IMG/VR virus record: IMGVR_UViG_3300009506_000012
Location: 18,164-82,163 of that record
DNA length: 64,000 nucleotides
Reading direction: 5' to 3' (one strand)
Source: a virus
The notes beneath the pieces are model-generated. The model made no database searches. It was not told the DNA's origin and saw only the letters and a list, made by a program, of their open reading frames with translations. Shown piece by piece: positions 16,708 through 56,928 of this stretch (its first letter is position 1; each line of letters opens with the position of its first letter). The translations under genes and the position numbers were made by a program.

Positions 16708-18093
16708 ATGGCAGACCCCATCACTGATTATTATGCAGACAATCCGGTTGAGGTACTGGATAAGAACCAACGTACCTGGTACGACCCCGATGTGCTGCTA
16801 CTGTTCAAAAATAGGTCACTCTTTACCAATGTTGTGACCTATGCGCGAAATCTCGGTGACGTTCGCGCTACAAGCATGGTGGTAACCCAGATCCTGGAAC
16901 CACATGCCAATTACAACGCCCTCGCAACCCGGCAGCTGTGGCTCCCGGCGATGCACATTGACTCTCGTTCTATCGAGATCACCTTCAGTCACCACGGTGG
17001 CAAGGTGGCCATGCACGATTATGATGAGCTGGTGACTTACTGGCAGACCAATGGAAACCCAGGCCTGCGCGTCATCCTCAATCGTGTCCTCGGTCAGAAC
17101 ATTGTTGATGTCCATGACTTCCTGGCCCGTAACGCTTTGCTGTACGGCGCTTTGGCACAAACCGGTTATGTGTATTACGCCGGTTCTGCAACCAACTTTT
17201 CCGATCTTGTCTCAACCGATTCGATGACCCCTGATATCTGTATGGAAATCCAGCTGGGTATGAAGTACCGTGAAGTCGCCGGCGCTCTCAATCCGGATGG
17301 CTCTCCCGGCGCTGTGGTGTGCTACACCACGCCTGGTGTGATTTATGAATTCCAACAGGATCCAGACTGGGTTGAGGTTGCAAAATATGCGGATCCGGCT
17401 CGCTTGTTCCGCTATGAGGTTGGCACCTACAAGAATGTGCGTTTTGTTGAAAATACGCGCCTGACCCTGTTCAACTGCGGCACGATTGAATTCCAGGCCG
17501 CAATCAGCGCGGCTGCACATGCCGGTGATGGTGCGCCCAATCCTTCTACGACCAAGGTCGATGGTACCTATATGGTCGGTCAGACTACAGCTGGAATCGT
17601 GAACTACATTCAGCTTGATACGCCCATCACTGGAACGATCGCTGATAACCTGGCTGTCAATGACATTCTGACCATTCACACCTCTCGTACCAGCACTTTC
17701 AACGTAACCAATGGCGTGAACCCATTCGATGGCACCCTGCACAATCGCCGTCTGGTCGAGATTGATGAGGCCAATGGCCGGCTTATCTTCGATAAGCCGA
17801 TCATGATGGACTTCGCAACTGACCTGGGTGGTGGCGTTTATGGATACGTGACCAAAGGCTTCCATATCCACTCGAGCATCTTCATTGGTGCCCCGCAGGG
17901 TATTGTCGCTGGCCTGGCCGCGCCTATCCGTCTGCACACCCCGCCCCCCATCGATGACCTGGAAGCGATTTATCGTTTCTCATGGAATGATCGTATGGGC
18001 TATCAACCATATGCCCCAGAGGTGTATGAGGTTGTGTTTAGCGCTGGTTCTGTCCGGTTCAAGGGCAAGATGGGCGCTGCTGCTGGATCCTAA
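16708..18093 (+). CDS. Major capsid protein (N4-gp56-like)
   Basis: 461 residues, AGGAG site. It forms the icosahedral shell. Residues 237-248 (EVGTYKNVRFVE) match the signature of the N4 gp56-type HK97-fold capsid family, as does the position after the scaffold. A segment at about 275-380 reads like an inserted beta domain (YIQLDTPITGTIADNL, HNRRLVEIDE) and may be surface exposed. No protease cleavage site is evident. Confidence 0.85.
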   Translation: MADPITDYYADNPVEVLDKNQRTWYDPDVLLLFKNRSLFTNVVTYARNLGDVRATSMVVTQILEPHANYNALATRQLWLPAMHIDSRSIEITFSHHGGKVAMHDYDELVTYWQTNGNPGLRVILNRVLGQNIVDVHDFLARNALLYGALAQTGYVYYAGSATNFSDLVSTDSMTPDICMEIQLGMKYREVAGALNPDGSPGAVVCYTTPGVIYEFQQDPDWVEVAKYADPARLFRYEVGTYKNVRFVENTRLTLFNCGTIEFQAAISAAAHAGDGAPNPSTTKVDGTYMVGQTTAGIVNYIQLDTPITGTIADNLAVNDILTIHTSRTSTFNVTNGVNPFDGTLHNRRLVEIDEANGRLIFDKPIMMDFATDLGGGVYGYVTKGFHIHSSIFIGAPQGIVAGLAAPIRLHTPPPIDDLEAIYRFSWNDRMGYQPYAPEVYEVVFSAGSVRFKGKMGAAAGS

Positions 18094-18107: not shown

Positions 18108-18743
18108 ATGTCTACTCTATCAGAAGTTCGATTGAAGGTATTGAGGGTGCTGTCCGATGAGGATGGTGCCCAATACTCTACAGACCTGCTACAAGATGGG
18201 ATTGAGGCGGCTCACATCGCCGTTTTGCCATGGGTCTATAAGAGAAGCGAACAGACACTGGTTGCTGATGAAGAAACGGTTTCATTCGCTTTGCCTTCGG
18301 ACTTCTATAAGGTCATATCCATATTCGACTCTGAGAGTGGTTACTACATTCCGGAAGGTGTACAGGCTGCATTCTCGCAACCTGGTGACAATGTGAACGT
18401 CAATCAGGAATTCGCGCAATATCCGGAAGGATATCTGACACTCCTGAACGCTCCGACCGAAGATCTGGTGATGAAGTACGCAGCATATTGGAGCGTACCG
18501 ACCGGCGAAAACGATTCGCTTGAAGTCCCATCCACACTGATTATGCCGATTGTGCTTTTTACGGCTTCTTATGCACTACTAGAGAAGTCAAGTAACGTCA
18601 GCTCGATCCGTCAATGGGCAGACAAGAACGTAGATGCCGGCACCCCGGTGATGAATCCAATGCGTGACCAGTCTAACTTCTACCTGTCACGTTTCACGGA
18701 AGCTATGAAGCTCCTGCCCGCACTTTCCCAAGGGTTTGCATAA
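18108..18743 (+). CDS. Head-tail connector (adaptor) protein
   Basis: 211 residues. Helical N-terminal segment (LSEVRLKVLRVLSDEDG), a central beta part (ETVSFALPSDFYKVISIFD) and a C-terminal helix bundle, a pattern seen in phage gp6/gp15-type adaptors that bind under the portal. Its TAA overlaps the next ATG (TAATG). Assignment rests on position and general pattern. Confidence 0.6.
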   Translation: MSTLSEVRLKVLRVLSDEDGAQYSTDLLQDGIEAAHIAVLPWVYKRSEQTLVADEETVSFALPSDFYKVISIFDSESGYYIPEGVQAAFSQPGDNVNVNQEFAQYPEGYLTLLNAPTEDLVMKYAAYWSVPTGENDSLEVPSTLIMPIVLFTASYALLEKSSNVSSIRQWADKNVDAGTPVMNPMRDQSNFYLSRFTEAMKLLPALSQGFA

Positions 18744-20477: not shown

Positions 20478-21173
20478 ATGACAACTAAATTCGCAATCAT
20501 CGCAGGCCCCAGAACCGGAAGCAGTACGATCCAAGTCTTTCTTGAAGATCTGGGGGTTTTTGTTTATAGAGAACCATTTAGACCCGAGAAAAATATACAT
20601 CCATATCCGGATACTCTCAATGAGATTTATTTCAAAAAGAACGCAGTTGGATTGAAGCATGTTTACACTCATGTCAACATTGAGGAAAATATCCGAATGG
20701 TTGAATGGCTTTATCAGAGAGGCATTACTACTGTTCTTCTGACGCGCAGGAATAAATTTCACCAGGCGGTCAGTCTTTTGATTGCCAAAAAACTGAATAT
20801 CTGGGCAGTCAAACCTGATGTCATGGCGGCGCTTGAATACAGGAATGTTGAAAGTTTTGAAATCTCGATCAGCGAGATTGAAAAGTTTATTGAATATGCT
20901 GAAACGATTGAAAGCGCTATTATGGGTATCCATATTCCCGACTATCAGATTTTTCAGACATTGTATTATGAAGCCTATTTCAATCAGGACTCTGCCAGGG
21001 CATTGACCAATGCAAGTCAGCTTGTTCGGGCGCTGGGTATCACAGCACCGGATTACATCGCTCCAATGATCCAACAGCATTTTGCGCCAGGAAGAAAACA
21101 GAACACCGAAGCTATCTATAGATTGATTTCTAATCGTGCTGAAATTGAAGAACATTTCGGAGCAAAATTATGA
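20478..21173 (+). CDS. Sulfotransferase-like protein
   Basis: 231 residues. Residues 10-17 (GPRTGSST) match the PAPS 5'-phosphosulfate loop of sulfotransferases, and residues 87-99 (LLTRRNKFHQAVS) match the 3'-phosphate binding R...S motif. It probably transfers sulfate to a sugar or protein acceptor. It is the first gene of a five-gene modification cassette inside the tail operon and overlaps the following methyltransferase (ATGA). The acceptor is unknown, and a degenerate binding protein cannot be excluded. Confidence 0.7.
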   Translation: MTTKFAIIAGPRTGSSTIQVFLEDLGVFVYREPFRPEKNIHPYPDTLNEIYFKKNAVGLKHVYTHVNIEENIRMVEWLYQRGITTVLLTRRNKFHQAVSLLIAKKLNIWAVKPDVMAALEYRNVESFEISISEIEKFIEYAETIESAIMGIHIPDYQIFQTLYYEAYFNQDSARALTNASQLVRALGITAPDYIAPMIQQHFAPGRKQNTEAIYRLISNRAEIEEHFGAKL

Positions 21174-21736
21174 CAGACAAGGTTATTGTCGATCTTGGAG
21201 GAGAGGGGCATTACCAAAATGGCACCGTAACGGTCAACATCAATCCCGAATCAGGTAGCGACATCATATGTGATATCACGGCGCGTGGCCAGGAGCTGCA
21301 CAGATACTTTCCTTATGGGAGTGTGGACATGTTTACCTGTATCCATACTCTTGAACATCTTGACCCGGCTGATGTTCCTGAAAGTCTGCTTTACTGGAAA
21401 TCCATTCTGAAAGATGGAGGCCGGTTATTGGTTATCGTTCCGGACCTGAAGCAGTTATGGCAGGATGTAATGAATGAAATTGTTTCCGAAGATGTTGCAA
21501 TCGCAATCACATTTCGTAATAATTTCAATGGAAAATTTGAATACTGGGACACCCATAAATGGGGCTGGACACGTAAAACTTTGCGCCGGGATATGGCATC
21601 CTGTGGTTTCAAAGTCATTGATCCTGAACGACCATTTTCGAAAGATTACATCTTCGATGATTACAGCTTTAGCTACACCGGTGATGTGCATCATTATGTT
21701 ATTCCAAATTTGCGAGTGATGGGGTTGAACAAATGA
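21170..21736 (+). CDS. SAM-dependent methyltransferase
   Basis: 188 residues. IVDLGGEGHY at 6-15 is a short form of the SAM-binding motif I, MFTCIHTLEHLDPADVPE at about 58 matches motif II of class I methyltransferases (Methyltransf_11-like), and LKDGGRLLVIVPD follows as motif III. It likely methylates a sugar or other small acceptor in the cassette pathway. Coupled to both neighbours by short overlaps. Confidence 0.8.
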   Translation: MTDKVIVDLGGEGHYQNGTVTVNINPESGSDIICDITARGQELHRYFPYGSVDMFTCIHTLEHLDPADVPESLLYWKSILKDGGRLLVIVPDLKQLWQDVMNEIVSEDVAIAITFRNNFNGKFEYWDTHKWGWTRKTLRRDMASCGFKVIDPERPFSKDYIFDDYSFSYTGDVHHYVIPNLRVMGLNK

Positions 21737-22500
21737 ATGAATATCTTGAGAAGTTTCACCTGCAATATTTTCTGGAACACAAAAGAGAGAATCGCTATTG
21801 GTGGTTTTTGAGGAATCAGTTTATGCCACCTGTGTATACTACCTTGGATGAACCTGAATTCTTATTGCTGATGGAGTGGTTTCGAGAAACAGACAAGAGA
21901 GGTGTTGCCGGGGAATGTTCTGTGCCTCTCATCTCTGCTTTGCTTGGATTTATCGCCGGGTCCGGGATAGATGCAGTTGTACAGCTGGGTCATGCTTACG
22001 GATATTCCAGTCTGCTTATGGGCTGGATGCTTCGCAGAATGGGGAAAAAACATGCACTATTTTCAATCGATATCAATCCGGATGCAACTGCTTTTGCCCA
22101 ACACTATATTGACAAGGCTGACCTCAATGAAGTTGTTGCGCTCCGTGTTGGCAATAGTGCTGACCCAAAGATGGTAGATCGTGCCAGGCAGTATTTTGGA
22201 AAAGAACCACAAATGATCTTCATTGACAGCAGTCATCAATACAAACATACACTGAATGAATTACGGCTTTATTACAATGCGCTTCCCAAGAATGGGATTA
22301 TCTTTCTGCATGATATCTCTCGTTTTGCAACCAGGTTTGATAAAACAGGAAAGGGGGGAGTCATGAAGGCGGTCTGCGAGTTTGTTGAAACCAATCTTAC
22401 TGAATCCGGTCTGTTCAATCGGCATATCGAAGGTAGCGACAGGGACGCGCCTTTGATTTTGTTGGATGGGTGTGGTCTGGGAGTGATACAGAAGTTATGA
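21733..22500 (+). CDS. Class I methyltransferase, Methyltransf_24-like
   Basis: 255 residues. VVQLGHAYGYSSLLM near residues 78-92 is the SAM-binding loop, SIDINPDA gives the acidic end of strand 2, and MIFIDSSHQYKHTLNEL with IIFLHD follows the pattern of Methyltransf_24 and cephalosporin hydroxylase-type enzymes found in glycan clusters. Likely a sugar O-methyltransferase. Its TGA overlaps the ATG of the HAD/GT gene (ATGA). Confidence 0.75.
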   Translation: MNEYLEKFHLQYFLEHKRENRYWWFLRNQFMPPVYTTLDEPEFLLLMEWFRETDKRGVAGECSVPLISALLGFIAGSGIDAVVQLGHAYGYSSLLMGWMLRRMGKKHALFSIDINPDATAFAQHYIDKADLNEVVALRVGNSADPKMVDRARQYFGKEPQMIFIDSSHQYKHTLNELRLYYNALPKNGIIFLHDISRFATRFDKTGKGGVMKAVCEFVETNLTESGLFNRHIEGSDRDAPLILLDGCGLGVIQKL

Positions 22501-24650
22501 ACAGTTTCGATTGTTTTGATACTCTGATTGGTCGAACTTGCGTTGATCCTGTCAATATTTTCGAAATGGTTGGAAACGAGATTAGGGATCCGGATTTTGT
22601 CAAAAAACGGATTGCCGCAGAAAGATTCTTTCAGCGCAAAAAGGCTCCTTATACACTTGATACTATTTATAAACAGCTTGGCCAACCAGAGCTGGCTGAA
22701 ATTGAATTCGGCTTCGAGCTTAAGAGTACATTCAAAATAAAACGCTATGCAAAAATGCTTCGGGAAGATGACATTATTATTAGTGACATGTACCTGACTG
22801 AAGATCAGGTACGCTTACTTCTCGAGAAAGCCGGCATTCATTTCGGCGGGAAGATATTTGTTAGCAATTATGGAAAGTTTTCTGGAAACATTTGGAGAAC
22901 GGTCAAAGAGCAGAGTCACAAGATCGAATTTCACCATGGGGATAATTCTTTCACAGACTTTGAAAGTCCAAGAAAACACGGTATTCGTGCAATCAGGGTC
23001 ACTGACACAAAACTGAACAAGATCGAAAAGCTGTATGCCGATACGCTTCCGGAACTGGGTGCCTGGGTGCGCAACAATCGGCTTCGGTATATCGTGGACG
23101 AGCGCAAAGAATTCTTGACGTTTATGCAAAATCAGTACAACATGCCGCTGTTGTGGAGTATCTGTCAGGAACTTGATCACTATCACAATGTGTATGATTT
23201 ATTATTTATGTCCAGAGATACCCAGCTTCTGCACCGCATGTACACGACCCTGGTTCCGGACGCGAGAGCTGAATATATCTATATCAGCCGAGATACTTTG
23301 CGAGGTGACAGTCAGTCTTATTTCGAATATTTGAATTCGAAGTTAACAAACAGATCTATACTGGTTGACATGGCATCCTCTTGTGGATCTTTGAAAGAAT
23401 CTCTACCTCATCTTCAGGTAAAAGAGCCCAATGTGTTTACAGCTGTTTTTTTACCTGTGCCGTTCAAGGTCGATCTTGGCCCAATCCATTGTTTTGCGAT
23501 GACAACCAATACCCAGATACAAATCAACAATACCTATTTGGAGATGTTGAATTATGCAGACCATCTTCATGTGGCTGATGTTGTTGACGGAAAACCTGTA
23601 TTCGATCTTCCTGGTGAATATGACATGGAAAAGGTCAAAGCTTACCATCGTGCTTTCAACCTGATGCTTGAAAATATTCCCAACCGTATAGTTGATGCAA
23701 AACCAGTATTCTTCCATGCACTAGCTGAAATCCAGAAGAACAAAGACAGAATCGGCAAAGAGTTTCCGAATCATGTTCCTATCGAAATCAAGCATAAAAA
23801 AACCATAAAGCAGGAACGCGCCAAAGACAATGTGATTGTGATCGGAGCTATCGCTAATTATTCCTGGACAAACATAGAACCATGGTGGAAATCTTTGAAG
23901 GCAACCGGTTTCGATGGGGATATACATATGCTGTGCTACAACATTGGAGGCCAGTCAATTCGGTACATGGAACGTAGAGGCATTCAAACACATGTCAGAA
24001 AGTTGACCGGGAAACAGATTGTGATTGATCGCTTTCGTGACCTGGCTACGCTTCTGGATGATATCGATCCGGATACCTGGATTGTTTTTCCGGATGTTGG
24101 GGATATCGTATTTCAGTACAACCCGAGACACTACCTCGAATCTGTATCAAAAGATATTGTGGTGACGCATGAAGGTGTTCTTTTCAGCGGAAACAAGTGG
24201 ATGCTGAATAACCTCTATGAGAGCTTTCCAAAATACGCTGAAGGTCTGAAGGATAAGTTCTTCTTCAATGCTGGCTCCATAGCTGCTAAAGCTGGAATAC
24301 TTTCGCAAATGTCAGAACACATCTACAAACTATGCTTGGAAAATCAGAACGCCACCAGTCACGACCAGACCGCCATGAACATCCTGCTTCACAATAACCC
24401 TGTTTATCGAAAGAAAACATTATTTTTGAGTCCCAATGATCCATGGTGTTTTTGCGGAGCTTCAAGTATATTTGCACGACCCGAAGATGCCAAGAATTAT
24501 TTGAGCGATCCGGTTACAGTTCAGAACGGAATTTGCTATTCGCGCCCTAATGTAAAGACCTGCATGTTTCATCACTACACACGAAACAAAAATATTGCCA
24601 GGCAGGTGATAACCCAGGTCAATCGCAGATTTGTAAATTCAAGACGGTAA
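22497..24650 (+). CDS. HAD-like hydrolase fused to a glycosyltransferase
   Basis: 717 residues, start chosen at the ATGA overlap. The N-terminal half has HAD motifs: SFDCFDTL at 3-10 (nucleophile D5), IIISDMYL with S96, and HHGDNSFTD with D149. The C-terminal part, about 440-717, looks like a GT-A glycosyltransferase: NVIVIGAIANYSW start, FPDVGD in place of the DxD metal motif, and FFNAGSIA as in acceptor-site loops. HAD-GT fusions occur in surface glycan pathways. It probably adds a sugar to a phage or host glycan. Confidence 0.75.
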   Translation: MNSFDCFDTLIGRTCVDPVNIFEMVGNEIRDPDFVKKRIAAERFFQRKKAPYTLDTIYKQLGQPELAEIEFGFELKSTFKIKRYAKMLREDDIIISDMYLTEDQVRLLLEKAGIHFGGKIFVSNYGKFSGNIWRTVKEQSHKIEFHHGDNSFTDFESPRKHGIRAIRVTDTKLNKIEKLYADTLPELGAWVRNNRLRYIVDERKEFLTFMQNQYNMPLLWSICQELDHYHNVYDLLFMSRDTQLLHRMYTTLVPDARAEYIYISRDTLRGDSQSYFEYLNSKLTNRSILVDMASSCGSLKESLPHLQVKEPNVFTAVFLPVPFKVDLGPIHCFAMTTNTQIQINNTYLEMLNYADHLHVADVVDGKPVFDLPGEYDMEKVKAYHRAFNLMLENIPNRIVDAKPVFFHALAEIQKNKDRIGKEFPNHVPIEIKHKKTIKQERAKDNVIVIGAIANYSWTNIEPWWKSLKATGFDGDIHMLCYNIGGQSIRYMERRGIQTHVRKLTGKQIVIDRFRDLATLLDDIDPDTWIVFPDVGDIVFQYNPRHYLESVSKDIVVTHEGVLFSGNKWMLNNLYESFPKYAEGLKDKFFFNAGSIAAKAGILSQMSEHIYKLCLENQNATSHDQTAMNILLHNNPVYRKKTLFLSPNDPWCFCGASSIFARPEDAKNYLSDPVTVQNGICYSRPNVKTCMFHHYTRNKNIARQVITQVNRRFVNSRR

Positions 24651-24651
24651 T

Positions 24652-24668
24652 GCTCCACATTGTGGAGC
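24652..24668. repeat. Dispersed palindrome copy 4
   Basis: GCTCCACATTGTGGAGC directly between the HAD/GT gene stop and the next start. Its right arm supplies GGAG, placed 9 bases before the ATG at 24677, so the palindrome contains the ribosome binding site. Confidence 0.85.
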
Positions 24669-24676
24669 TGATTAGC

Positions 24677-25744
24677 ATGAGCGCCTACAATCCTCCAAGA
24701 CTTGTTTCCAAAGCATACGATAGACCTGTTGACATACTGGCTACCAGGCCGCATTTTGTTGACCATATCGCTCCTGTATGGAGGCACCTAGAAAATCGAG
24801 GTGGCTTTTATGTTCCTGAAGTATTGTTAGATTATGCTAAAACCAAAGTACCTGAAGCCGTAGGGGTAAAGCCAGTTGGCAGAAGCGATAAGCTGAATAT
24901 CAGGCCTCCCGAAAAAAATGTGTACTTTACCTGCGCTTATGGGGATTTAGAGAAAGGCATGATTACTGACCTGAAACGGGTTTTTATCTTTATGGAACAC
25001 GGAGTCGGGTTAGTGTTTCCGGGAAATCCTCACTATGCCGGGAGTGTTGGCCTTCGAAGGCGTGTTCATTTCTTTCTTGCGCCAAATCAGAATATTCATG
25101 ATAAGACCTGGACCACTTTTCCAGAAGCACCGCAAGCTATTGTTGGCACCCCAAAGATGGATAATGTTCCAACAGATATGCCGATCAACCGGGATGACCC
25201 GTTGATTATTATCTCATTTCACTGGGATGGAAGGAAGGTGGCCAGGGAAGCGGCGAACGCATATCCACATTTCAGAGAGATTCTTCCGGAAATTGCAAAA
25301 CGATATCACTTGGCCGGCCATGCTCATCCACGTATCGCAAACTACTTCGAAAGAGTGTATAATGAATTAGGCATTGAGTTCATTCGTGATTTTGATGAAG
25401 TCATGCGCAGAGGGGACCTTTATCTAAATGATGCCAGTTCAACAGCATATGAATTCGGCGTCACTGGGAAACCAGTCATCTTACTTAACTCGCCCGGTTA
25501 CCGGCGTAACATAAATTTTGGAATCCGATTTTGGCAATACACAGATTGGGCTATTCAGGTTGATGAACCTGGCCAGCTCATTTCTGCTATAGAACAAACA
25601 CTACATAAACCCTCACATGAACAGAAACAGAAACAGATGGTAGCAGACCTCTACCCGTACCATGGGCAGAGTGCAAAGCGTGCTGCTGATCAAATAAACA
25701 GATTTCTGAACATGCGAGGAACCAATGCCATACAAGATACCTGA
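24677..25744 (+). CDS. GT-B / CDP-glycerol transferase-like protein
   Basis: 355 residues from the ATG at 24677, chosen because GGAG of palindrome copy 4 lies 9 bases upstream; an ATG at 24650 would put the palindrome in the coding region. The C-terminal half holds LNDASSTAYEFGVTGKPVIL, close to the SS..(Y/F)E motif of CDP-glycerol glycerophosphotransferases (TagB/TagF) and GT-B enzymes, and LAGHAHPR upstream. It likely transfers a sugar or glycerol-phosphate. It ends the modification cassette and overlaps the chaperone gene by 20 bases. Confidence 0.7.
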   Translation: MSAYNPPRLVSKAYDRPVDILATRPHFVDHIAPVWRHLENRGGFYVPEVLLDYAKTKVPEAVGVKPVGRSDKLNIRPPEKNVYFTCAYGDLEKGMITDLKRVFIFMEHGVGLVFPGNPHYAGSVGLRRRVHFFLAPNQNIHDKTWTTFPEAPQAIVGTPKMDNVPTDMPINRDDPLIIISFHWDGRKVAREAANAYPHFREILPEIAKRYHLAGHAHPRIANYFERVYNELGIEFIRDFDEVMRRGDLYLNDASSTAYEFGVTGKPVILLNSPGYRRNINFGIRFWQYTDWAIQVDEPGQLISAIEQTLHKPSHEQKQKQMVADLYPYHGQSAKRAADQINRFLNMRGTNAIQDT

Positions 25745-51316: not shown

Positions 51317-51925
51317 ATGCCTACCCAATTTGAGATATTTGTCCAGAATGCACTTGAGATCCACGATCCATATGCACAGGGACATGGAAAAAACGTATCT
51401 CAGTTAGCCTTACTGCTTGCATTAGAGTACGAGGACGGAACTCATCAAGAAAAGATTGACTACCCCACGTTGCAGATCGCTGCAAATATCCATGATGTGG
51501 GAAAACTGTTCGTACCAGAAATATTCATAAGCAAATCAACCAGGCTGACAATTTCAGAAATGGAGACTATCAAACTGCATACTGTGTTGGGCTATAGAGC
51601 TGTACAGTCTATGAGCCTGCCCTTTATCGCGCAAGATGTTATTCTGCATCATCATGAAAACTGGGATGGCACTGGATATCCACATGGATTGCTTGAAACC
51701 AATATCAGTATCTATTGCAGAATTGTACGCATTGTAGATTCTGCTGATGTCATGTTTGGAGCTAACAGACCTTATAAGAAACGAAAATCAGTCCAGCAAA
51801 TCATTACAGAACTTGAGTTTTGTTCGGGGCGTGAATACGATCCGTATCTGACGGCCAAGTTTGTCGGCATGCTTCGCAGGAAACCCGAAATACTAGAGGA
51901 AAGATATGGATACACAGGTTCTTGA
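51317..51925 (+). CDS. HD-GYP domain phosphodiesterase
   Basis: 202 residues consisting almost entirely of one HD-GYP domain. Metal and signature residues are all present: H23, H59-D60 with K63 (IHDVGK), H88, HHH 111-113 (HHHENWDGTGYP, GYP at 120-122), D141 and RPYKKRKS at 151-158. HD-GYP enzymes hydrolyse cyclic dinucleotides such as c-di-GMP, and some cleave 3'3'-cGAMP. There is no sensor domain. It lies between fibre and lysis genes, overlaps the next gene by 20 bases, and may alter host signalling or counter a cyclic-nucleotide defence. Confidence 0.85.
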   Translation: MPTQFEIFVQNALEIHDPYAQGHGKNVSQLALLLALEYEDGTHQEKIDYPTLQIAANIHDVGKLFVPEIFISKSTRLTISEMETIKLHTVLGYRAVQSMSLPFIAQDVILHHHENWDGTGYPHGLLETNISIYCRIVRIVDSADVMFGANRPYKKRKSVQQIITELEFCSGREYDPYLTAKFVGMLRRKPEILEERYGYTGS

Positions 51926-53748: not shown

Positions 53749-53760
53749 AGGAGTATGCAA

Positions 53761-54282
53761 ATGTTCGCTCATTCTCGCAAACGTCTTTTCTTAATGACAG
53801 TGGTCCTGGCTCTTGTTATGGCCATGTTCCTTGTCATCCCCGTCTTGGCCGCACCCGTTGGTTTTCAGGTCGAGGAACCCACCTTTGACTTTGGTGCGTT
53901 CCTTCAGAGTTGTACTGCCCTGTTCGCTACTTTGGTTGGTATCAACCAGTTCATTATGTTCCTGGTCAACTTCTTGAAAATGGTAAAGGTTGTTCCAGAT
54001 GGTGGTGGCGAATCTGCTTATAAACTATTGAACGGTCTTGCCTTTGCACTCTTGTTGGCACAGCAACTATTCTTACCTGCGTTTGATGTATTGCAGATTG
54101 ATAAAATTGCAGGTCTGCTTGCCCAGCTTGGCAGTATCGTTGTGCCGGCGCTGATCGCTATTGCTTTCCCGGCTGTCATGTGGTTGGGTGAGAAGGCTTA
54201 TCAGGCCTGGCGAGGCTTCCCCGTTCTCGGATATTCTTACAGTGCCGGTGGCATGAAGGCACTGTTCTCTAAAAATGGATAA
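53761..54282 (+). CDS. Holin-like membrane protein
   Basis: 173 residues from the ATG at 53761, since AAAGGAG lies 7 bases upstream; an ATG at 53755 is too close to it. A signal-peptide-like segment (LFLMTVVLALVMAMFLVIPV, with a possible cut after LAA) is followed by membrane segments near 45-65, 82-102 and 113-135. Size and place at the end of the lysis cassette suggest a holin or an inner-membrane partner of it, longer than most holins (80-150). Confidence 0.6.
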   Translation: MFAHSRKRLFLMTVVLALVMAMFLVIPVLAAPVGFQVEEPTFDFGAFLQSCTALFATLVGINQFIMFLVNFLKMVKVVPDGGGESAYKLLNGLAFALLLAQQLFLPAFDVLQIDKIAGLLAQLGSIVVPALIAIAFPAVMWLGEKAYQAWRGFPVLGYSYSAGGMKALFSKNG

Positions 54283-55164: not shown

Positions 55165-55178
55165 AACGCTTTTTTCCT

Positions 55179-55234
55179 GTGTACGCACCCTGCGTATGTA
55201 CGTCCCGTAGGGGAAAATCACAGGGTGCGCACAC
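55179..55234. promoter_or_regulatory. Strong hairpin in a leader
   Basis: GTGTACGCACCCTG (55179-55192) pairs with CAGGGTGCGCACAC (55221-55234) with one mismatch, loop 28 bases holding a small CCC-gta-GGG stem. On the minus strand its far arm is followed directly by the AGGA site of the gene starting at 55164. No U-tract follows, so translational control or RNA stability is more likely than termination. Confidence 0.6.
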
Positions 55235-55248
55235 TAAAAGTGGGGAAG

Positions 55249-55920
55249 TCAGTTATCTTCAGACCATACGTCCTTCAGTGTTTCGAAATGACCGTAGCCA
55301 AGATTACGCATGATTTGAATGGCTTCATCAGTCTCTACCAGAACATAAGGATCGTTCGGTTTTGAACCAGCCTTTTCAATGATATCAAGTTGCAGGAAAT
55401 ATCCCATAATACGTTCCAGCTTTTTACGGCCTATCCTGTAAGTGGATTTCATGGCAGTCTGTGTGGTAGGACGATGATTAGAGAATGCCCTTGCCACGGT
55501 CATGATATCGCTTTGCCATTCTTCAGGAATATCAGTATGTACAACCTGAGTACCATCCGGACGTTCGATCTTGAAAACCAGCACCCGAGTGCTTGGAATA
55601 TCAGGCTTCCCGTCAAAGTTCAGGTCGCCTCGTGCAATCATTTCACTCTTAACATTCCAACGCCATAGAGAAAATAGAAAAACAGCACTGGCCAGGGCAA
55701 ATGAAATAAAGATATCCCACCAGAACCAGCCAACCCACAACTGGGTTTGCGCGAGAGAACCAACCAGACAGAACGAAAGCACGAACGCAATTCCAGTATG
55801 CCATATAGGAATCTTGGCAGCTACTTCTGTCTTGTGTACGATGTCACCGAATACGGCATACTGTTCGTGATCCGGACGCTGTGTCTGTTGTGGCTGAAAA
55901 GCTATATTACTGTTTCGCAT
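55249..55920 (-). CDS. Membrane protein with C-terminal winged-helix-like domain
   Basis: 223 residues. Two membrane helices at about 41-58 and 63-87, then GDLNFDGKPD, an EF-hand-like Ca-binding pattern, and a C-terminal domain that resembles a winged helix (QTAMKSTYRIGRKKLERIM, LDIIEKAG). A membrane-bound DNA-binding or signalling protein is possible. It overlaps the lipoprotein gene by 14 bases and is probably co-expressed with it. Confidence 0.6.
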   Translation of the reverse strand: MRNSNIAFQPQQTQRPDHEQYAVFGDIVHKTEVAAKIPIWHTGIAFVLSFCLVGSLAQTQLWVGWFWWDIFISFALASAVFLFSLWRWNVKSEMIARGDLNFDGKPDIPSTRVLVFKIERPDGTQVVHTDIPEEWQSDIMTVARAFSNHRPTTQTAMKSTYRIGRKKLERIMGYFLQLDIIEKAGSKPNDPYVLVETDEAIQIMRNLGYGHFETLKDVWSEDN

Positions 55921-56704
55921 CTCGATATCCTTCTATCAAATCTTCGAGGTATTTCTTGATCGTAGTTTCATCGGTCAAGGGTTGACCAGGAATTACTATA
56001 TCAGTATTGGCCATGGCTTCCGCAACTTCTCCATGAGAGGACACCAAGCCAGTCTTACGCATATTACTCAGCATCACAGAAGCCAACAATACTTCCCGGT
56101 TGATCTCTTTCATCTGTACATCACCGGCAGCATTTTCGTTTAGCTTTGTGATAACACGACTAGTTTGAACGTCCACAATACTCCATTCAGATTTGAATCG
56201 ACTATGCTTGATGTTGATACCCAAAGCATTTTCAATCTTGTCGGTCCAGGTATTACTGTTACTGGACTGTGGAAGCTGGTGCATAAACGGACGAGCAAGA
56301 CGAGTTTGCGGGTCAATTGGAATTAGATTACTACGAATAGTCATCCATTGAGCCATTGAATTTGCGCCGGCATCAATCACAATCCATGCACCTCTGGATA
56401 GCGCCAGGCCACCGACCACAACCACCATAAACATACTGTACAGAAACCAGGTGCCCAGTTTGACAATTGTTCCTTGCCATTTACTACGTACCTGTTTCCA
56501 GTATTCTTTTTTGGATACTTCAAAGTTGTGCATTTCAGAATCTTGCAAGCGCTCTTGTGCCATGTTCTGGGCAGTTTGATCAGCAAGCAATTCAGTCTGA
56601 TACTTTTGCCCCTCAGCCTTTATTTGGGCGGCTGTTTGATAGTTGCAAGAGGTAACCAGAAAAGCAAATACAGATATCAATAAAATTTTCAGTGTAGTGT
56701 TCAT
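55907..56704 (-). CDS. Putative lipoprotein with internal membrane helix
   Basis: 265 residues. N-terminal signal with lipobox LVTSC, lipid on Cys20. A second membrane helix at about 83-103 (LGTWFLYSMFMVVVVGGLAL) then a soluble C-terminal domain. Phage lipoproteins often act in the envelope, for example in superinfection exclusion; here that is inference. Coupled to the winged-helix membrane protein. Confidence 0.65.
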   Translation of the reverse strand: MNTTLKILLISVFAFLVTSCNYQTAAQIKAEGQKYQTELLADQTAQNMAQERLQDSEMHNFEVSKKEYWKQVRSKWQGTIVKLGTWFLYSMFMVVVVGGLALSRGAWIVIDAGANSMAQWMTIRSNLIPIDPQTRLARPFMHQLPQSSNSNTWTDKIENALGINIKHSRFKSEWSIVDVQTSRVITKLNENAAGDVQMKEINREVLLASVMLSNMRKTGLVSSHGEVAEAMANTDIVIPGQPLTDETTIKKYLEDLIEGYRDAKQ

Positions 56705-56721: not shown

Positions 56722-56928
56722 TTAATAACTTACAGGTCGTTTCAGTATATATCTATTCCTTAGCTTGGATGGATCCAGAACAAATCCGTCCTCATTGGAT
56801 TTTATTTTTATTCTCTTACCAGGGCAGCGCCTATTCTTACAGGGCTTCCAAAGCCTGTGTTGGGTTTGCATCTCGATTTCATTCAGCTCAAGTTCTTGTC
56901 CACAATAAGGACAATAAGCAAAGTCCAT
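56722..56928 (-). CDS. Small zinc-ribbon protein
   Basis: 68 residues with CPYCGQ at 6-11 and CKNRRCPGK later, so a Cys4 zinc ribbon. The ATG directly follows the upstream stop (TAAATG). Possibly a nucleic-acid-binding adaptor. Confidence 0.65.
   Translation of the reverse strand: MDFAYCPYCGQELELNEIEMQTQHRLWKPCKNRRCPGKRIKIKSNEDGFVLDPSKLRNRYILKRPVSY

Follow-up and report, generated by a model that had tools for sequence, protein, structure and literature searches.

The question raised by this locus is what a virus would do with two overlapping genes, one for a lipobox protein (A) and one for a membrane protein whose C-terminus is predicted to fold as a winged helix (B). Our analysis suggests that the two products probably form a small device, as yet undescribed, that acts on phage DNA at the membrane, a reading based on the recurrence of the same pair in other, largely different phages near genes for DNA replication. 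The window, by which we mean the whole 64,000-nucleotide stretch that was analyzed, runs from position 18164 to position 82163 of a virus record of 82,163 bases. Its profile matches include an SPP1-like portal (6.4e-14) and the major head protein phrog_1357 (3.4e-15), and because portal and capsid are recognizable we take the record to be that of a tailed phage. The closest record found, G001 (82,822 bases), encodes a capsid protein that is 72% identical; a search for relatives by portal found none. The plus-strand late genes of the window end at 54282, and A and B lie at the end of a convergent minus-strand block.

Directly upstream of A is a minus-strand gene (56722-56928) for a 68-amino-acid zinc-ribbon-like protein, whose zinc-ribbon matches fall below cut-off and whose homolog in G001 (E 7e-15) adjoins B there; small cysteine-pair proteins were also seen by eye near A in G011, G020 and G021, three of the related phage records described below. 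On the other side, the gap between B and the next gene (55170-55248) holds a strong inverted repeat (55179-55234) with a fold energy of -35.4 kcal/mol as minus-strand RNA (z -7.0, with 0 of 200 shuffles as good). This hairpin stops near the likely ribosome-binding site of the next gene and is possibly an attenuator, a processing site or a DNA operator. Within the late genes, 51317-51925 on the plus strand encodes an HD-GYP-type domain protein (HD_5, E 5.6e-26; motif HHENWDGTGYPHGL) that by its motif would be cyclic-di-GMP-hydrolase-like. The gene that closes the late block (53755-54282, plus strand) encodes a membrane protein, putatively holin-like by position, with a relative in G020 (E 2.6e-7) that is itself related to a G011 protein (5.6e-18). 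By eye, the minus strand of the same phage record also encodes a small protein in which CxxC motifs accompany a Tat-like SRRDFLK signal (L002:12250-12675), and two genes (L002:16125-16793 and 16920-17795) with a VWA-like sequence (DTSGSMDMSD) and a J-domain-like stretch.

A is the first gene of the pair (55907-56704, minus strand) and encodes 265 residues. As originally predicted from the letters, it carries both a lipobox, VTSC at residues 17-20 (56645-56656, minus), with Cys20 as the candidate lipidated residue, and a second hydrophobic segment at residues 78-112 (56369-56473, minus). The family motif IRSNLIPIDPQTR follows at residues 123-135 (56300-56338, minus; consensus RANLIPLDxxTRQYP) and leads into a C-terminal domain, with 155 residues lying C-terminal to the best-scoring helix. 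All four A proteins with an intact N-terminus have a lipobox and qualify by motif as bacterial lipoproteins: VTSC in the window, LTAC in G011, LAAC in G020 and LATC in G021, the last of which departs from the strict motif by its T at -1. Searches with window A in Pfam, PHROGs, NCBIfam and PADLOC returned sub-threshold matches at best (for example HK_sensor at 0.017). An AlphaFold2 model of the G021 protein, of low confidence (mean pLDDT 51), has a long helix (20-113) that takes in the hydrophobic part, and after it a small beta/alpha domain; a fold search with this poor model was empty (best E 0.83).

A lipobox followed by a membrane segment brings lysis to mind. Unimolecular spanins combine a lipobox with a C-terminal transmembrane helix, and their gene sits in a lysis cassette. 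A could be such a protein with B as an accessory, since 60-72 residues separate its lipobox from the membrane segment in four proteins, the slot of the pair borders the late-gene end in both the window and G001, and G001 B has a weak match to a holin profile (phrog_785, E 0.0011, residues 28-84). However, all five A sequences continue for 99-155 residues past the membrane segment, and the pair is encoded opposite the late-gene strand. Both properties depart from the spanin layout, and in G011, G020 and G021 the pair lies near replication genes. We consider a spanin-like role very improbable.

B (55249-55920, minus strand; 223 residues) begins inside A, the two genes sharing 55907-55920, and both this 14-base overlap and the two-helix character claimed for B in the original prediction were borne out. 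The hydrophobic helices of B lie at about residues 39-57 and 67-85 (membrane hairpin 39-85, 55666-55806, minus), and the AlphaFold2 model places helices at 18-57 and 66-96. Between them are 2-9 residues in the seven members compared, leaving no room for a sizeable domain. After the hairpin comes the loop DLNFDGKPDIPS (residues 99-110; 55591-55626, minus), whose DLNFDG at 99-104 is the only DxNxDG match among the 142 stop-to-stop open reading frames of at least 100 amino acids in the window. D1, N3 and G6 of this loop are kept in all eight known B members and D5 in seven of the eight. The original prediction had called it EF-hand-like (DxNxDGxxD), and that description held for positions 1, 3, 5 and 6; position 12 is serine in the window (glutamate in three of the eight family members) and position 8 is proline. 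The B family profile matches EF-hands at E 0.27 and worse, and the AlphaFold2 model, with pLDDT below 50 in this region, shows no helix directly after the loop. A canonical EF-hand, in which a 12-residue loop ending in an acidic residue at position 12 is flanked by two helices, was accordingly rejected as the full claim.

A winged helix had also been predicted for the C-terminus of B, and fold prediction upheld it. AlphaFold2, run with five relatives, gave a mean pLDDT of 59 for the whole protein and block means of 73-82 over residues 131-190. The model has a beta hairpin (112-131), helices at 133-147, 154-161 and 165-177 and strands at 181-183 and 192-194, consistent with the alpha1-beta1-alpha2-alpha3-beta2-wing-beta3 order of a predicted winged helix at about residues 130-196 (55333-55533, minus). 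Foldseek against the PDB gave a best E of 4.3e-3 and none at or below 0.001; among the top matches listed were many winged helices, including Fur, TubR, BigR, TtgV, IscR and Zalpha. VIA aligned the domain with Zalpha (1qbj) at Z 8.8 and an rmsd of 1.5 over 63 residues and with IscR (4hf0) at Z 8.7, the highest matches being parts of the APC/C at Z 10; by the tool's own account a Z near 8 is common. In BFVD one match was entry A0A1P8DJI7 (E 4.7e-5, 202 residues), which from its length we take to be the B protein of Virus Rctr41k, and a further fold match, left out of the family, went to Burkholderia phage Maja (E 7e-4).

A winged-helix fold would not by itself imply DNA binding; winged helices also bind proteins or RNA. 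One alternative is that the domain is a protein-protein module and that the A-B membrane complex disables or recruits a host protein. The winged helices of APC/C and cullin subunits are among its PDB neighbors (Z about 8-10), and the recognition-helix residues of window B differ from those of other members, but the third helix is, by eye, rich in arginine and lysine in the other six aligned members, and we regard host takeover of this kind as improbable. A second alternative, which takes up the sensor idea of the original prediction, is a membrane-bound, one-component early transcription regulator, roughly like ToxR/ToxS, in which the winged helix would control phage or host promoters and A would serve as co-factor or signal input. 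Fur/PerR, IscR, BigR, TtgV and MarR are among the fold neighbors, the two-gene arrangement includes a membrane partner, and the DxNxDG loop could bind a divalent ion. Against this, the likeness to regulators is generic for winged helices, the 2-9 residues between the helices of B hold no sizeable domain, and the neighboring genes are often replication genes. In ToxR and CadC an N-terminal winged helix is followed by a single membrane helix and then by a periplasmic sensor. B resembles them in having, as predicted, a winged helix fixed to the membrane, but places two helices first, joined by a short loop, and the winged helix last, and does not belong to this type. Searches of Pfam and NCBIfam with window B gave no match to MarR, Fur, IscR or similar regulators, and the B family profile matches MarR chains at E 1.5-1.8. 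The regulator reading is in our judgment unlikely, if still reasonable.

Library searches with B were as sparse as those with A: in Pfam, PHROGs, NCBIfam and PADLOC the window protein had sub-threshold matches at best (FG-GAP_3 at 0.046, HRDC at 0.13). The DUF4131 matches of G011 B (1.9e-5) and Rctr41k B (8e-4) are below Pfam's cut-off and start in the membrane part, and Thermus histidine kinases match G001 B at E 6e-2 (query 57-181).

B was nevertheless found in seven other phage records, making eight members with the window, and A lies directly upstream in four of the seven. Close relatives of window A or B were not found in viral contigs or INPHARED, nor was window B in plasmids, and BLAST of the two window proteins against the records of the first relatives matched none of ten in either case. 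In G001 the zinc-ribbon homolog adjoins a protein that has a pair of membrane helices, the sequence DINNDG and a C-terminus resembling that of B. A tblastn search with this G001 protein reached Virus Rctr41k at E 2e-2, a link that G011 B later gave at 9e-23, while a three-sequence B alignment, scanned against viral contigs, recovered G001 alone. DNA patterns built on the shared B motif led to G011, G012, G013, G020 and G021: a first pattern scan gave 14 stretches, of which 4 were kept (L031, L033, which is G001, L034 and L036), and a second gave 21, of which 5 were kept (L031, L033, L034, L154 and L165). Inspection by eye and a hydrophobicity filter removed the rest, which had no preceding membrane hairpin, had no C-terminal domain or were long unrelated proteins. 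L036 (G013) is the eighth B member (hhalign 89.3; hmmsearch E 3.5e-4) and has no A.

Bacterial genomes gave no further members. The B architecture was absent from all 80 stretches judged, out of 102, in a genome pattern scan, and profile scans found it in 0 of 400, 0 of 398 and 0 of 392 sampled genomes, with at most 7 candidates per genome scored among the matches listed and the sampled phyla being ones that may not hold the hosts. Virus Rctr41k (KX853513.1) encodes A as Rctr41k_01, cut by the contig end, and B as the complete Rctr41k_02, each annotated as hypothetical protein only. The source of Rctr41k is a methane-oxidizing enrichment culture; it is genome 4 in the accession list of the source paper, the available part of which proposes no function for either protein (PMC5099504).

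How firmly do the window proteins belong to these families? For A, BLASTP joins the window to G011 (E 7e-12) and G011 to Rctr41k_01 (1e-21), with window and Rctr41k_01 at 0.017 directly. When a profile is built from the four A proteins other than the window's, it recovers window A at E 7.9e-9, the next open reading frame in ten records scoring 1.7, and the resemblance is therefore not one of chance. The stretch from the IPLD motif to the C-terminus taken by itself is not significant (E 45). We accordingly place window A in the family by its whole-length profile similarity, a family defined here by lipobox, membrane segment and RANLIPLDxxTRQYP. The B proteins of G011 and Rctr41k are close (BLASTP E 5.6e-36), as are those of G011 and G012 (3.8e-23), and window B diverges most among the members tested (E 3e-6 against Rctr41k_02). 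An hhalign comparison of the six other members with window B gave a probability of 89.9 and, as a single comparison, an E of 1.7e-6 over 178 columns, with an unrelated window membrane protein at 0.4 as control; hmmsearch missed window B with default filters and found it at E 0.017 with --max. None of 500 segment-preserving shuffles of the whole protein reached its profile or BLAST score. The C-terminal domain by itself is not significant, 14 of 500 shuffles reaching its BLAST score and 1 of 500 its profile score, with an E of 6.4 among open reading frames. Our assignment of window B to a family with two transmembrane helices, DxNx[DN]G and a predicted winged helix is based on the whole-protein comparison together with the fold, the loop and the position beside A.

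Conservation of the pair, on which the original prediction had been staked beforehand, extends well beyond the window. The A-B order is kept in five phage records, namely the window, G011, G020, G021 and Rctr41k, with overlaps of 1-14 nucleotides in four of them and a spacing of 46 nucleotides in Rctr41k. G001, G012 and G013 have no A beside B, and the A profile with default filters finds nothing there at E<=10, so A is not obligatory for B. All-against-all comparison (BLASTP, E<=1e-5, open reading frames of at least 60 amino acids) showed how little else some of these phages share: G011 and G021 match in A and B alone, as do G020 and Rctr41k (2 matches each), and G020 and G021 share A, B and one antisense open reading frame overlapping them. 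Other pairs share more (8 matches for G011/G020, 7 for G021/Rctr41k and 3 for G011/Rctr41k). The window record matches G011 only through A (1.4e-7) and has five non-A/B matches with Rctr41k; at 1e-5 window B reaches no other record. That two pairs of phages have just A and B in common indicates that the genes are retained or transferred as a unit even where the genomes are largely different. The window genes at 20478-25744 (plus strand) are 37-45% identical to proteins of Virus Rctr41k and have no G001 match at that place, so that exchange or inheritance between these two phages has gone beyond A and B.

The genes around the pair are often replication genes. In G011 the gene after A and B encodes a membrane protein; a DnaB_2 initiator (1.1e-13) comes next, and then a DnaB helicase (5.4e-83). 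In G020 they stand after a ParB gene (HTH_ParB, 2.4e-18) and a regulator-like gene and before a DnaA_N protein (2.8e-11). A Toprim primase (1.8e-9) is encoded upstream on the same strand in G021, and a homolog of the DnaB_2 protein (1.5e-15) precedes B in G012, where a tyrosine integrase follows. The window pair is less tightly placed, adjoining late genes at the end of its minus-strand block and not inside a replication cluster, with a DnaB_C helicase (7.5e-12) encoded on its strand some 3.8 kb upstream. In Rctr41k an actin-like gene (ALP_N, 4e-15) begins 48 bp after B, the one case in seven records, and none was found in the window record. A multi-helix membrane protein directly follows B in G011 and comes one small gene later in G020 (L147:5924-6652, minus strand; L180:4973-5644, plus strand). 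By eye these proteins, which had no Pfam match, have a helix-turn-helix-like or C2H2-like C-terminus and are possibly further membrane-bound DNA handlers.

The same neighborhoods bear on when the pair is made, and on the suggestion that it protects the cell. In the three records examined, G011, G012 and G021, the strand opposite A/B carries, in divergent orientation, a serine recombinase and an HTH_3-type gene (3.4e-6, 1.4e-9 and 1.2e-3, the third value failing Pfam's cut-off). A divergent HTH gene with a recombinase resembles the usual layout of a repressor side facing an early lytic side. Tyrosine integrases lie on B's strand in G012, G021 and Rctr41k, and the regulator-like gene of Rctr41k is also on the A/B strand; the integrases blur the early-lytic reading and make expression of A and B in a lysogen possible. 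A further alternative is superinfection exclusion or envelope protection, in which A and B would block DNA entry by related phages; the integrases on the A/B strand make it slightly more likely than it would otherwise be. Five of seven records (G013 left out) have an integrase or serine recombinase, and a lipoprotein with a membrane protein is a make-up that suits exclusion: the Ltp-type lipoproteins (PMC3952083) are, like A, phage lipoproteins, but A differs in its second membrane segment and its winged-helix partner. Exclusion does not need a winged helix, B stands opposite the HTH gene and serine recombinase in the three records, and the window record and G001, which may be incomplete, yielded neither a tyrosine nor a serine recombinase. 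PADLOC 2.0 matches were weak, with none at E <= 0.001 for eight proteins (window B at 0.09, to a 2TM effector; G011 B at 0.0018, to LmuC, residues 159-200) and none for A. We consider exclusion a rather remote prospect. The original prediction had proposed an envelope sensor linked to gene control or an exclusion system; with no sizeable domain between the helices of B, replication genes as neighbors and B opposite the HTH_3 gene and serine recombinase, neither is favored.

We tentatively prefer a model in which A and B form an early inner-membrane complex that holds phage DNA or replication proteins at the cytoplasmic face. Both proteins would be made early in infection, and the winged helix of B would lie in the cytoplasm and bind phage DNA or a replication protein. 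The 15 residues after B's second helix contain 1-4 lysines or arginines and the loops 0-2, a weak positive-inside signal. With that topology, A would cross the membrane from a lipidated N-terminus outside to a C-terminus inside, and its long helix could allow the lipid-anchored protein to hold or assemble B. The DxNxDG loop would then form a rigid or metal-bound elbow between the membrane hairpin and the winged helix. It may bind an ion; a role as calcium sensor seems unlikely, since the loop would sit on the cytoplasmic side close to the membrane, and cytoplasmic free calcium is low. A bolder version of the preferred model, which we put forward as possible though doubtful, is that A and B are a two-gene, phage-specific complex that docks DNA to the membrane, a cassette that moves between phages with little other relationship and links early replication with the membrane of the host.

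Few phage proteins are known to handle DNA at the membrane, and to our knowledge the best-worked model is phi29. Its p16.7 joins a homeodomain-like DNA-binding domain to a single membrane helix and lacks a lipoprotein partner. For the membrane proteins p16.7 and p1, a role in anchoring phage DNA or terminal protein to the membrane has been proposed (PMC4974454, available part), and the role suggested for A-B would be analogous in function; A-B is of other make-up and includes a lipoprotein partner. Similarly, the available part of a study of the Corynebacterium prophage CGP3 proposes that AlpC and AlpA guide phage DNA to the membrane and describes AlpA as an adaptor DNA-binding protein (PMC4446434). 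The actin-like gene directly after B in Rctr41k offers a likeness to this pair, again at the level of possible function, but B is itself predicted to lie in the membrane and no actin-like gene was found in the window record. Among the open-license literature matches listed, there was no description of the A-B pair or of a phage lipoprotein combined with a membrane-anchored DNA-binding protein.

A and B represent two protein families without recognition in four profile libraries (Pfam, PHROGs, NCBIfam and PADLOC). If they do form a docking complex, then in at least one phage that complex adjoins a phage actin. With its presence in five phage records and its lipoprotein partner, the pair would serve as an independent example, open to testing, of how phages handle DNA at the membrane.
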